Shown here piece after piece: positions 34,403 through 39,078 of a stretch of 64,000 nucleotides of DNA (the stretch's first letter is position 1; every line of letters begins with the position of its first letter). The position numbers and the translations under genes were made by a program. The stretch is from Nitrososphaerota archaeon (GTDB lineage Archaea > Thermoproteota > Nitrososphaeria > Nitrososphaerales > Gagatemarchaeaceae): the NCBI GenBank assembly GCA_029785085.1, contig JAFMAI010000004.1:1-64000 (forward strand), read 5' to 3'. Under the pieces are notes generated by a model that searched no databases, was not told the origin of the DNA, and saw only the letters and a program-made list of their open reading frames with translations.

Positions 34403-34510
34403 CGTCTCTTCCCTTACATGGGTGCCCTTTTTACCTGTCGGCCCTAATCGGGTTCGCCCTCGCAGTCTACCAAAACCTAATATACCAAAGATATTGATTA
34501 TATTGCCGTC

Positions 34511-35758
34511 ATGCCGATGCCCAAGAACCCAGAATCAGATTCTACGACCGTGAAGCTGTCGAGGGATACCTACTCCAAGCTCGCATCGCTCGGCAAATAT
34601 TCTGAGACCATGGACCAGATCATCCAGCGCCTGACCACCCAGGCGAAGGGGCTCGAGGACGTCGTCGCCGGGAAGAGCTCCATCACCTTCATCGACGGCC
34701 ACGAGGGACGCCTGCTCTACCGCGGCTACGACATAGCAGACCTGACGACTCACTCCAATTACGAGGAAACGGCGTTCCTCCTCTGGAACGGCCATCTCCC
34801 GACCGTGAACGAGCTCAAAGGCTTCAGCGAGGAGCTCGATTCTAAGCGCGCGATACCGCGCGAGCTGGTGTCGATCCTCACCACCCTCCCTCAGAACTGC
34901 GACACCATGGACGCGCTGAGGGTCGGGGTTGCTGCCCTCGGGGTCTTTGACGACCCGATGTACTCGCAGCAGGAGAAAGCCATGTCCATTGCGGCGAAGA
35001 TGGGGACGATGGTGGCGGCGATCCACAGGCACAAGCACGACCAGGAGGTGGTCGCCCCGCGCGAAGACCTCTCCTTCGCGGCCAATTTCCTCTATATGTT
35101 GTCAGGCAAGGTCCCATCCGAAGAGGATTCGAGGCTGATGGACGTCCTACTGATCCTCCATGCGGACCACGAGTTTAACGCTTCGACCTTCACCGCCCGG
35201 GTCATAGCTTCGACCCTCTCGGACATCTATTCGGCCGTCACCGGAGCCGTGGGGGCTCTCAAGGGCCCGCTCCACGGCGGGGCCAACGAGAAGGTGGTCG
35301 AGATGACCGCAGAAATCGGCTCCCCGGCCAAGGTGGACGCCTACATCCGCGGGAAGCTGGCCAGCAAGGCGAAGATCAACGGCTTCGGTCACAGGGTCTA
35401 CAAGACCATGGACCCGCGGGCGAAGATCCTGAGCGACATGGCAGAGCACTTCGTGCGGACTCCGAAGGAGAAGGAGTCGCTGGAGATCATCCAGCGGATC
35501 GAGGCCATACTCCTGAAGGAGAAGAACCTATACCCCAACGTCGACCTCTTCTCCGGACTGGCCTTGAACCACATGGGAGTGCCTGCGTATCTGTTCACCC
35601 CGGTGTTCGCCATAGGCCGTGCTCCCGGATGGCTCGCCCACGTCCTGGAACAGTACGCCGACAACAGGATAATCAGGCCTATCTCGGACTACGTCGGTCC
35701 GCAACTCATGACCTACACCTCCATAGAAGGTCGAACCTCCAAGGGGCTGAGGCCTTGA
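34511..35758 (+). CDS. gltA: Citrate synthase with an RHH/antitoxin-like N-terminal extension
   Basis: Residues from about 46 on are an archaeal-type citrate synthase joining acetyl-CoA and oxaloacetate. Catalytic residues are in GPLHGGANEKV, GFGHRVYKT and NVDLFSG, and ITFIDGHEGRLLYRGYDIAD is the usual start of the domain. The first 45 residues are additional. TTVKLSRDTYSKLASLGKYS followed by ETMDQIIQRL has the strand-helix-helix pattern and sequence of archaeal VapB/DUF7557-type ribbon-helix-helix proteins. A TATA box (AATATACC, about 34476-34484) lies 31 bases before the ATG at 34511, which supports translation of the extension. Its job is unknown: DNA binding or oligomerisation are possible. 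The CBS-domain gene overlaps its stop codon. Confidence 0.92.
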   Translation: MPMPKNPESDSTTVKLSRDTYSKLASLGKYSETMDQIIQRLTTQAKGLEDVVAGKSSITFIDGHEGRLLYRGYDIADLTTHSNYEETAFLLWNGHLPTVNELKGFSEELDSKRAIPRELVSILTTLPQNCDTMDALRVGVAALGVFDDPMYSQQEKAMSIAAKMGTMVAAIHRHKHDQEVVAPREDLSFAANFLYMLSGKVPSEEDSRLMDVLLILHADHEFNASTFTARVIASTLSDIYSAVTGAVGALKGPLHGGANEKVVEMTAEIGSPAKVDAYIRGKLASKAKINGFGHRVYKTMDPRAKILSDMAEHFVRTPKEKESLEIIQRIEAILLKEKNLYPNVDLFSGLALNHMGVPAYLFTPVFAIGRAPGWLAHVLEQYADNRIIRPISDYVGPQLMTYTSIEGRTSKGLRP

Positions 35759-36180
35759 GGGTCGAGGCCCTGGTCAAGCGCAGGCCGGTTACCATAAGCC
35801 CAGGGGCGACCATAAAACAGGCCGCAGAAGTCTTCGCCCGGGAGAAGATCGGCCTCCTGGTGGTAGCGCCCTCTGTGAGCCCGGTGAAGGCAGAGGCCGT
35901 GCTCTCCGAAAGGGACGTGGTCAGGGCCGTGGCGAAGGGGGTGGCCCTCTCGGGGCGGCTGGACGCCGTGTCGACAAAGAAGCTGATCAGCGTCAAGCGG
36001 TCTGACAGAGCCTCCACGGCGGTCAGGCTCATGGCGGACAACGGTATAAGGCACCTGGTGGTGGAGAACGACGACGGGACCCTGTTCGGGGTCCTCTCCA
36101 TCAAAGACTTCTTCCGCGAGGGAAAGCTGCTCAACTCGTTCCTCAGGGAAGAAGACCAAGAGGTCCACGGCGTCGATTAG
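35755..36180 (+). CDS. CBS-domain-pair protein
   Basis: This 141-residue protein consists of two CBS domains: KRRPVTISPGATIKQAAEVF and LLVVAPS...AVLSERDVVRAVA, then KLISVKRSDRASTAVRLMAD and RHLVVENDDGTLFGVLSIKD. Such Bateman modules bind AMP, ADP, ATP or similar ligands and usually regulate a partner. The TTG start (35755-35757) overlaps the TGA of citrate synthase, so expression is coupled. Energy-dependent control of citrate synthase by this protein is a natural but untested inference. No catalytic domain is attached. Confidence 0.85.
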   Translation: MRVEALVKRRPVTISPGATIKQAAEVFAREKIGLLVVAPSVSPVKAEAVLSERDVVRAVAKGVALSGRLDAVSTKKLISVKRSDRASTAVRLMADNGIRHLVVENDDGTLFGVLSIKDFFREGKLLNSFLREEDQEVHGVD

Positions 36181-36468: not shown

Positions 36469-36849
36469 ATGCTGAGAATGGCTCTTTTCGGCGACATCGG
36501 GATAATCTTCGTCATGGCCCTCGTCGCGGTGGGGCTCACGGGGCTGGTCATGATAATCCCGCGCCTATTCGCGCCCAGGCGGCCCAACCCGATCAAGAAC
36601 CTCCCCTTCGAGGCAGGCCAAGTCCCCCAGGGCGCCGGCAAGATGCACTTCATGATGCAGTACTACGCCTACCTCCTCATGTTCATAGTGTTCGACGTCC
36701 TCTCTATGTTCCTCTACGCCTGGGCGTCGGCCTACAAGCCACTCGCCCTAGGGCTGTCTTCCGACTGGACGGTGACGCTCTTCATGGGGATGCTCTTCAT
36801 CCCAATGGGCTTCGCCCTGTTCCTCGCGGGGAAGAGAGAGCTATGGTAG
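36469..36849 (+). CDS. nuoA: NADH-quinone oxidoreductase subunit A (complex I)
   Basis: This 126-residue membrane subunit of complex I has three transmembrane helices. The conserved loop after helix 1 reads NPIKNLPFEAGQVPQGAG, corresponding to the K-x-x-x-YECG-x-P region, but Ala-Gly replaces the Cys-Gly seen in many bacterial subunits. QYYAYLLMFIVFDVLSMFLY is the second helix with its conserved acidic residue. ATG at 36469 or 36478 may be the start, given the TATA box at about 36448. First gene of nuoABCD; each following gene overlaps or abuts the previous one. Confidence 0.9.
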   Translation: MLRMALFGDIGIIFVMALVAVGLTGLVMIIPRLFAPRRPNPIKNLPFEAGQVPQGAGKMHFMMQYYAYLLMFIVFDVLSMFLYAWASAYKPLALGLSSDWTVTLFMGMLFIPMGFALFLAGKRELW

Positions 36850-37370
36850 TCGCCCAGCAGCAGAAGGCGGGGACTTTCCAGGTCCTCGTAGGCAAGATAG
36901 ACGACGTCCTTCAGTACGCCATAGGTGACCCCCTGCGCTACCTGGCAAACTGGGGACGCCTCTATTCGCTCTGGCCCGTCCATCTAGAGACAGCCTGCTG
37001 CTCAGTCGAGGTAGGTGCCGCCGCGGGGTCCCGTTTCGACATAGAGCGTTTCGGCACGCTAGAGGCATTCGGCTCTCTCCGCGCCTGCGACCTCATAATA
37101 GTCATGGGGACGGTGACCAGGAAGCTGGCCCCTAGGCTGAAGCTCATCTACGACCAGATGGCAGAGCCGAAGTGGGTCATCGCCATGGGAGCGTGCTCCA
37201 TAACGGGCGGGCTCTACTTCGACTCCTATAACGTCCTCAGGGGCATCGACGACATCATACCGGTGGACGTGTATGTCCCGGGCTGCCCTCCGAGGGCCGA
37301 GGCGCTGATCCAAGGGATAGTCCTACTGCAGGAGAAGATCCGAAGGATGCCCACGCTCAGCGGCCGGTGA
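36843..37370 (+). CDS. nuoB: NADH-quinone oxidoreductase subunit B (complex I)
   Basis: This 175-residue subunit carries iron-sulfur cluster N2, the last electron carrier before quinone. The cysteine ligands are in LETACCSVEVGAA, MGACSITGG and YVPGCPPRAEALIQG, which is the complete pattern CC...C...C. The ATG at 36843 overlaps the end of nuoA by seven bases. As in other archaeal complexes of this kind, the electron donor may be a ferredoxin or F420 unit rather than NADH; no NADH-binding subunits (NuoEFG) occur in the window. Confidence 0.94.
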   Translation: MVVAQQQKAGTFQVLVGKIDDVLQYAIGDPLRYLANWGRLYSLWPVHLETACCSVEVGAAAGSRFDIERFGTLEAFGSLRACDLIIVMGTVTRKLAPRLKLIYDQMAEPKWVIAMGACSITGGLYFDSYNVLRGIDDIIPVDVYVPGCPPRAEALIQGIVLLQEKIRRMPTLSGR

Positions 37371-37957
37371 CGATACCCATGAGCAAGGCCAGTCAGCCAG
37401 CCAATCCCGCTCCTTCCCCGGCCGTGGCTCCGCCGCAGCCGGCCAATGCTCCGCCCAGCTCTGCCCCGGCGGCCGCCCCTGCTGCAAATCCGGACTTGGA
37501 CAGGGCAAAGGCCATCGCCGACAAGATAACGTCGAAGCACCCAGGGACGAAGCTGGAGTGGGTCAAGCCGCGCCGGCTGAAGGTCTCCGCCCCGGCGAGC
37601 ATGATCAAGGACGTGGCGCTCTTCGCCAGGGACTCGCTCGGGTTCGACCACATCAGCACGGTAAGCGGGGTCGACTGGATTGCGAAGAACGCGCTTGAAG
37701 TCGTCTACTTCGTTGGCTCCACGGTCCCAGGCCAGGAGGGGTTCGTCCTGGCCCTCTCCGAGAGGGTGCCCAGGGACAATCCGGTCGTCTCAACCCTGAT
37801 TGGGGTATGGAGGGGCGCGGAGTACCACGAGCGCGAGACGCACGAGATGTTCGGGCTCAACTTCCAGGGCCACCCCGACCAGAGCCACCTCTTTCTCCCG
37901 GAGGACTGGAACGACCTGCCGCCCCTCCGTAAAGACTACGTTTCGCCAGGTAGATGA
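37367..37957 (+). CDS. nuoC: NADH-quinone oxidoreductase subunit C (complex I)
   Basis: The core of this 196-residue protein is the 30-kDa subunit of complex I: DHISTVSGVDWIAKNALEVV, ALSERVPRDNPVVSTLIGVW, HERETHEMFGLNFQGHPD and FLPEDWNDLPPLRKDY. It forms part of the peripheral arm with NuoB and NuoD. The first 45 residues are an unusual Pro/Ala-rich tail before the conserved domain. GTG at 37367 overlaps nuoB; ATG at 37379 is an alternative. It overlaps nuoD by four bases. Confidence 0.93.
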   Translation: MTIPMSKASQPANPAPSPAVAPPQPANAPPSSAPAAAPAANPDLDRAKAIADKITSKHPGTKLEWVKPRRLKVSAPASMIKDVALFARDSLGFDHISTVSGVDWIAKNALEVVYFVGSTVPGQEGFVLALSERVPRDNPVVSTLIGVWRGAEYHERETHEMFGLNFQGHPDQSHLFLPEDWNDLPPLRKDYVSPGR

Positions 37958-39078
37958 GAATGACCCTCGAAAGCGAGTACTCGCCAGACGCCGACCGGAT
38001 CATGGCCGTCTCACTCGGCCCTCAGCACCCGGGAGCCGGCCACTTCCGCATCAGGCTCTGGCTAGACGGCGACTACGTCGTCAAGGCCCTCCCCGACGCG
38101 GGCTACGTCCACAGGGGCGAGGAGAAGATGGGGGAGTACAGGAACTACACCCAGAATGTCCCGCACCTGGAGAGGCCGGTGATACTAGACAGCTCGAACA
38201 TACTCTTCGCCTACTCCTTGGGGGTCGACGAGCTCATGAACAGCAAGGTCCCCCCCAGAGCGCAGTACCTCCGGGTCATCATGTCTGAGATCAACCGCAT
38301 CATCTCGCACATGTACTTCATCGCCATCCAGGGGCTCTTCCTGGGCCACACCACGATGATCACCTGGTGCATGGGCGACAGGGACTTCTGGATTGACCTC
38401 GGCGAGAGGATAGCGGGCGCGAGGGTGACCTTCGCCTACATCATCCCTGGCGGAGTGAGGAACGACATCCCGGAGTTCGCCATCGAGAAAGGGCTCAAGA
38501 CCTGTGACTGGTTCGAGAAGCGCATGGGCGAGTACGAGAAGATATTCTACGACAACCCCATGGTCCACCAGAGATCGGACGGCGTCGGCGTCCTGTCCAG
38601 GGATGACGCCATCGCCTTCGGCGCAACGGGGACCGTCGCCAGAGCCTCCGGGCTCGCGCTCGACGTAAGGAAGGACGAACCCTATAGCTCATACTCGGAC
38701 TTCGAGTTCAAGACGCCGGTGCTCACCCAGGGGGATTCCTGGGCTCGCGCCTACGTCGCGCTGCTCGACATGCGCGAGTCGATCAAGATAATCAGGCAGG
38801 CGCTCAAAGGCCTCCCACAGGGCCCGGTGCGCCTCAAGCTCGGCCCACAGCCGAGGGTCCCCGCGGGGGAGGTGTACTCCAGGACAGAGGCTGCCAGGGG
38901 GGAGATGTCGTACCACATAGTCAGCGACGGCTCGCCGCGCCCCTACCGTCTGAAGATCGGGGTGCCTTCGGCGAAGAACCTCAGGGCCCTGCCGCACCTT
39001 CTGAAGAACGTCCACATAGCAGACATCCCTGTGATCTACTGGAGCCTGAACTACTGGCCGGTCGAAGCGGACCGATAA
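37954..39078 (+). CDS. nuoD: NADH-quinone oxidoreductase subunit D (complex I)
   Basis: This 374-residue 49-kDa subunit helps form the quinone pocket. SLGPQHPGAGHFRIRLWLDG, GYVHRGEEKMGEYRNYTQNV and PRAQYLRVIMSEINRIISHM are the family hallmarks, and the end DIPVIYWSLNYWPVEADR is at the usual place. Relative to hydrogenases the nickel cysteines are absent, as expected for complex I. The operon stops here: the next gene is on the other strand, so nuoHIJKLMN must lie elsewhere if complex I is whole. Confidence 0.94.
   Translation: MRMTLESEYSPDADRIMAVSLGPQHPGAGHFRIRLWLDGDYVVKALPDAGYVHRGEEKMGEYRNYTQNVPHLERPVILDSSNILFAYSLGVDELMNSKVPPRAQYLRVIMSEINRIISHMYFIAIQGLFLGHTTMITWCMGDRDFWIDLGERIAGARVTFAYIIPGGVRNDIPEFAIEKGLKTCDWFEKRMGEYEKIFYDNPMVHQRSDGVGVLSRDDAIAFGATGTVARASGLALDVRKDEPYSSYSDFEFKTPVLTQGDSWARAYVALLDMRESIKIIRQALKGLPQGPVRLKLGPQPRVPAGEVYSRTEAARGEMSYHIVSDGSPRPYRLKIGVPSAKNLRALPHLLKNVHIADIPVIYWSLNYWPVEADR

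Follow-up and report, generated by a model that had tools for sequence, protein, structure and literature searches.

To our knowledge, few enzymes are repressors of their own genes; PutA and BirA are the classic bacterial examples. Among ribbon-helix-helix (RHH) proteins with tandem operators, MetJ reads 8-bp boxes. Citrate synthase is a dimer. Trifunctional PutA is also dimeric, carries an N-terminal RHH domain on a metabolic enzyme and acts as an autogenous transcriptional repressor (PMC5293562). The RHH protein omega/ParB of pSM19035 reads tandem 7-bp heptads (PMC9499535), and vapBC operons are autoregulated by VapBC complexes (PMC4803016). No function is described for the DUF7557 family (PF24434), on which a literature search found no paper, and no description of a citrate synthase-RHH fusion was found in the literature either. 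Here we describe such a fusion in an archaeal genome. We propose that the enzyme is an autorepressor of its own operon, as PutA is but in a different enzyme; the probability of this reading is roughly 80%, with binding and repression both inferred.

The window, i.e. the whole stretch of DNA analysed, comprises bases 1 to 64000 of contig C16 and belongs to an incomplete 0.9-Mb genome. The features of the locus are collected in Table 1. The enzyme exceeded the curated TIGR01800 cut-off (470 bits for a threshold of 421). Citrate_synt was the sole Pfam domain of the enzyme body, the proline dehydrogenase and P5C dehydrogenase domains of PutA being absent. H255, H294 and D345, which we take to be the expected catalytic residues, were conserved in the citrate synthase alignment. 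Judged from these matches, the protein is a type II citrate synthase that looks catalytically intact. The Citrate_synt domain started at residue 47 (Pfam) and TIGR01800 at residue 46 (NCBIfam), in agreement with the initial annotation, which had noted that citrate synthases usually begin near residue 46 of this protein; residues 1-45 are therefore extra. Relatives with the same gene were Nitrososphaerota/Thaumarchaeota MAGs, including SubAcS15-15 and SubAcS15-57. Their family (f1), of uncultured archaea from soil and acid water, is apparently the Gagatemarchaeaceae (Group I.1c), as inferred from the MAG names, which resemble those of genomes from an acidic-soil study of the Gagatemarchaeaceae (PMC10640624).

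Table 1. Coordinates of the features of the citrate synthase locus in the window and the evidence for each.
Feature	Coordinates	Strand	Details
Citrate synthase ORF	34511-35758	+	ATG at 34511, stop 35756-35758, 415 aa
RHH/DUF7557-like extension, residues 1-45	34511..34645	+	Pfam DUF7557 E=1.3e-5; AF2 model; Foldseek; conserved in g1-g5
Layout of the extension			Flexible tail 1-10, strand 12-17, helix A 18-27, helix B 34-45
Citrate synthase body (type II / TIGR01800), residues 46-415 + stop	34646..35758	+	Pfam Citrate_synt E=1.2e-135; TIGR01800 470 bits
Putative operator unit 1, CCTAATATA	34476..34484	+	Overlaps TATA box; joint optimisation over 23 fused promoters
Putative operator unit 2, CCAAAGATA	34485..34493	+	9-bp self-match, joint optimisation, model R2
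Putative operator unit 3, TTGATTATA	34494..34502	+	Followed by ttgccgtc before ATG; self-match, joint optimisation, R2
CBS-domain protein, two CBS repeats	35755..36180	+	TTG start 35755 overlaps citrate synthase TGA stop; Pfam CBS E=2e-18, 2 stretches

The extension was assigned by profile search and structure prediction. When scanned as an isolated 47-aa sequence, it matched DUF7557 over residues 12-41 with 25.0 bits (E=1.3e-5), exactly at the curated gathering cut-off of 25; in a full-length scan of the protein, the score was 21.6, below the cut-off. In the relatives, 18 of 19 extensions matched DUF7557 and six matched VAPB_antitox. An NCBIfam scan of the extension gave no match, and a search of its profile against the PDB matched the MazE7 antitoxin at E=0.036. 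In an AF2 model of the domain as a monomer, built from a 30-row alignment, helices were found at residues 18-27 and 34-45 with a mean pLDDT of 80; the strand-like TTVKLS that precedes them was itself left unassigned. The best Foldseek match of this model in the PDB was the SeqA N-domain (probability 0.93, query TM 0.68); DNA-binding domains of plant TCP proteins came next, and both are RHH-type folds. The Foldseek E-values were weak (0.9), as expected because the query has 47 residues and models an obligate dimer as a monomer. The full-length AF2 model was of low confidence at residues 44-64, leaving the linker and the dimer geometry unsupported. Altogether, profiles, AF2 and Foldseek place a domain with a DNA-binding fold on the enzyme, predicted to be of the RHH-type beta-alpha-alpha kind with an alternating strand pattern and a conserved core.

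The extension was present in all examined fused genes of genera g1-g5, with conserved start-codon positions, and is therefore not due to chance. In several of these genes (e.g. in G005, G026, G032 and G034), the start ATG lay directly before the strand, MSKVVKVSEETHSKL. Residues K15, S17, T20, L24, K29 and D35 were invariant in the fused extensions, and pooled pN/pS values of 0.18 for the domain and 0.19 for the enzyme body indicate equal purifying selection. Start positions and selection mark the extension as translated and retained. In the proposal of the initial annotation, the domain added to citrate synthase is an RHH domain of the VapB/DUF7557 type; the profile searches did not refute this proposal, and it is backed by family profiles, predicted fold, conservation and selection alike.

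Among 398 sampled genomes of the phylum and 201 of the order, strong matches to the extension within long frames were confined to family f1, and elsewhere the extension profile found short standalone ORFs. Several standalone matches within the family were VapB-like proteins (MESTTVKVSKDT...), each followed by a PIN-domain gene that overlaps it. The extension is shared by related archaea in genera g1-g5 but absent in g6 and g7, where the orthologues start at MSKGLEDV. In a tree of the enzyme, the unfused g6/g7 proteins were nested inside the fused group and G034 branched first, which suggests, as the simplest apparent history, a single gain by the ancestor of the family followed by a single loss of domain and operator together. 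The outgroups were long-branched, making the root less sure. Some genomes held further copies. In G033 (C9:43218-46089), another citrate synthase, without the fusion and 38% identical, is divergently transcribed about 0.5 kb from the fused one. Two fused citrate synthases were found in each of the MAGs G009, G018 and G030, either as mixed bins or as real duplicates, and the paired copies of G009 and G030 differ in RHH and operator types.

The CBS-domain protein had been described by the initial annotation as translationally coupled behind citrate synthase. This arrangement stands, and the coupling was conserved downstream of the fused genes. It was also found behind the unfused G035 orthologue, and we therefore rejected it as part of the novelty. 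The CBS-domain protein is possibly a nucleotide-sensing partner. It takes the place where a VapBC module would have a PIN toxin, so that the fused gene and its neighbour do not qualify as such a module, whereas the standalone VapB-like relatives of the extension do have PIN neighbours. Further downstream of the citrate synthase-CBS pair, a same-strand run (window 36469-39078) resembles NADH dehydrogenase (complex I) subunits, as judged by eye from the translations.

Upstream of the fused genes, three boxes with the partly palindromic consensus GTATACC recurred every 9 bp between the TATA box and the start codon, examples being GTTTACCgaGTAAACCaaGTATACC in G026 and GTTTACCgtGTATACC in G034. The periodicity was quantified over the last 36 nt of 23 fused promoters, near-identical copies having been removed. 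Self-match at a 9-bp shift was 0.525, versus 0.27 in shuffled sequences (z=14.5), the 18-bp harmonic reached z=8.1, and no other period from 4 to 18 was raised; these z-values treat related sequences as independent. A control block of the fused promoters, from -120 to -84, gave no periodic signal. Joint optimisation yielded three 9-bp units, CCNARTATA; unit 1 falls on the TATA box, and unit 3 stops 2-10 nt short of the start codon. In the subclade of the window, the array was more degenerate (ATATACC/AGATATT/TTATATT) than in other genera. Model R2, whose training set included the window sequence, matched the window at 34476-34505 (E=2e-8). The g6/g7 orthologues had ordinary TATA promoters and no array. 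The window gene thus has an operator-like array in its promoter, a feature of the sequence for which there are no binding data.

The occurrence of such arrays was assayed over 46 genomes of the family with models R1 and R2, built from 12 and 7 promoters. R1 matched fused citrate synthase promoters, among them the G181 promoter, on which it had not been trained; its sole other match in the 46 genomes lay immediately before a CopG-type RHH gene of G035 (E=0.44). R2 matched window-type promoters (E=1.5e-8 to 3.6e-6) and otherwise three weak places in G034 (E 0.03-1.1). Triple TATAC arrays, defined as three boxes at 7-9 bp by a pattern blind to RHH genes, occurred at 13 places. Twelve lay directly upstream of RHH genes (six VapB-type, three CopG-type with RHH_1 confirmed by Pfam, and three fused citrate synthases), and the thirteenth was intragenic. 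Such arrays therefore mark RHH genes in this family, and by this comparison citrate synthase has one where the RHH domain is carried. With its first unit on the TATA box, the 9-bp repeat might be a mere core-promoter feature of the lineage, the extension having an unrelated role. We give this explanation hardly any credence. Indeed, the array models found almost nothing else in the 46 genomes, unfused orthologues with the same neighbours have a TATA box without the repeat, and all but one of the triple arrays belong to RHH genes.

A stricter two-box pattern, GTWWACCNNGTWWACC, was found in seven genomes, in five of them at the start of the fused citrate synthase. The two other GTWWACC tandem sites (G164 and G181) lay away from any recognisable regulated gene start and were set aside as chance. 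A global regulator was not supported, the array models and tandem-box patterns giving no convincing second target in any genome; the stricter filters of Infernal may miss weak sites, and single boxes were not covered. A 9-bp period was absent from the promoters of the standalone relatives when all were pooled, and those of the same family had a 7-8-bp spacing by eye. VapBC operons with three TATAC(C/T) boxes, 7-8 bp apart between TATA and ATG, were observed at L094, L096, L098 and L100-L106; these arrays are candidate VapB operators on the basis of their position and sequence. A CopG-type RHH family with a longer C-terminal region (L181, L182 and L169, in G033, G164 and G035) also has TATAC arrays at its promoters, with a spacing of about 8-9 bp.

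Operator and domain were then compared across the fused genes. With body distance held constant, operator distance correlated with RHH distance (partial Mantel r=0.56, 0/5000 permutations; 0.44 without G008); with RHH distance held constant, its correlation with body distance was -0.11. In these alignments, operator divergence tracks RHH divergence, not enzyme divergence. Because the operator and the RHH coding sequence are adjacent, linkage or recombination can inflate this covariation. In G008 (L008), about 420 bp, roughly from -330 to +88 around the citrate synthase start, have been replaced. The block holds the operator, the strand and helix A, all changed to the GTAAACC/GTTTACC type, with a breakpoint inside the domain, and the enzyme body is still about 90% identical to that of the window. 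The G008 lineage has exchanged operator and RHH part together, in a natural specificity swap.

These data bear on two other explanations. The SeqA N-domain oligomerises, and another SeqA domain reads DNA. The extension could be a pure oligomerisation module of this kind, forming larger assemblies, with the promoter boxes belonging to another factor. The best Foldseek matches were SeqA N-domain chains, and RHH domains mediate PutA dimerisation (PMC5293562). However, such a module accounts neither for the restriction of the array to genes with the domain, nor for the covariation of operator and domain, nor for similar arrays at other RHH genes, and we consider it unlikely. Alternatively, a separate RHH protein, such as a VapB antitoxin, might bind the boxes, the extension having lost DNA binding. 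Standalone VapB relatives with similar TATAC(C/T) arrays do occur in many of the same genomes. Yet their arrays are spaced by 8+7 or 8+8 bp, against 9+9 for citrate synthase, and g7 keeps vapB (G145) while its citrate synthase lacks both domain and array. Moreover, the operator type follows the fused RHH, in which K15 and S17, outward strand positions by the RHH register, are invariant. A separate binder is thus very improbable. The initial annotation had left it undecided whether the domain binds DNA or alters assembly. The putative tandem operator at the gene's own promoter, which that annotation had not noted, makes DNA binding, itself inferred, more likely than a role in assembly alone; beside DNA binding, a part in assembly like that of SeqA is not excluded.

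For the autorepressor, we propose the following mechanism. The citrate synthase dimer would present a pair of RHH arms able to form one RHH2 unit. Such units would bind the three tandem 9-bp boxes of the citrate synthase-CBS operon, which run from its TATA box towards its start codon. Once bound, they would block TBP, TFB or RNA polymerase and so repress transcription initiation, and this self-repression would hold the enzyme level constant. DNA binding itself, repression as the sign of the regulation and the dimer geometry are all inferred; there are no direct DNA-binding data, and the evidence is only indirect, from the operator array and the covariation. On 27 bp, space may be short for three citrate synthase dimers, which are bulky. 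The enzyme might be released from DNA by substrate binding or domain closure, which is speculation by analogy with the release of PutA on proline binding. In a more specific form, which we hold as a tentative idea, more doubtful than probable, binding of oxaloacetate or acetyl-CoA (domain closure) would toggle the enzyme between catalysis and promoter binding, the DNA-reading domain and its operator having been inherited from a toxin-antitoxin module. If true, this metabolite-sensing autorepressor would directly control the flux into the citric acid cycle.

The enzyme that opens the citric acid cycle thus appears to have become an autorepressor in one lineage of archaea through capture of an antitoxin-type DNA-binding domain, illustrating a route for the domestication of toxin-antitoxin parts. 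Since the operator is visible by comparison, a single protein and a single 60-bp DNA would be enough to test this claim immediately. The operator-plus-domain swap of G008 would be useful for studying RHH specificity, and the candidate VapBC operators of the family can be read directly from sequence.

Among solved structures, the SeqA N-terminal domain (PDB 1xrx, 3fmt) has the closest fold to the extension model. Like omega/ParB and MetJ, the fused enzyme would use short contiguous tandem boxes read by RHH dimers, but its array has a 9-bp period and an unrelated box sequence. The extension shares with VapB antitoxins a homologous strand and helix A (STTVKVSKDT), and in this archaeal family both have TATAC(C/T) arrays in the corresponding position. 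It differs from VapB in having no toxin partner, in sitting on an enzyme, in the spacing of its boxes (9 bp versus 7-8 bp) and in a helix B that resembles the DUF7557 type. As in PutA, an N-terminal RHH-like domain is fused to a metabolic enzyme. Unlike PutA, citrate synthase is already dimeric without the RHH, is archaeal and lacks a membrane-binding domain, and its regulation is inferred from a three-box 9-bp array between TATA and ATG.
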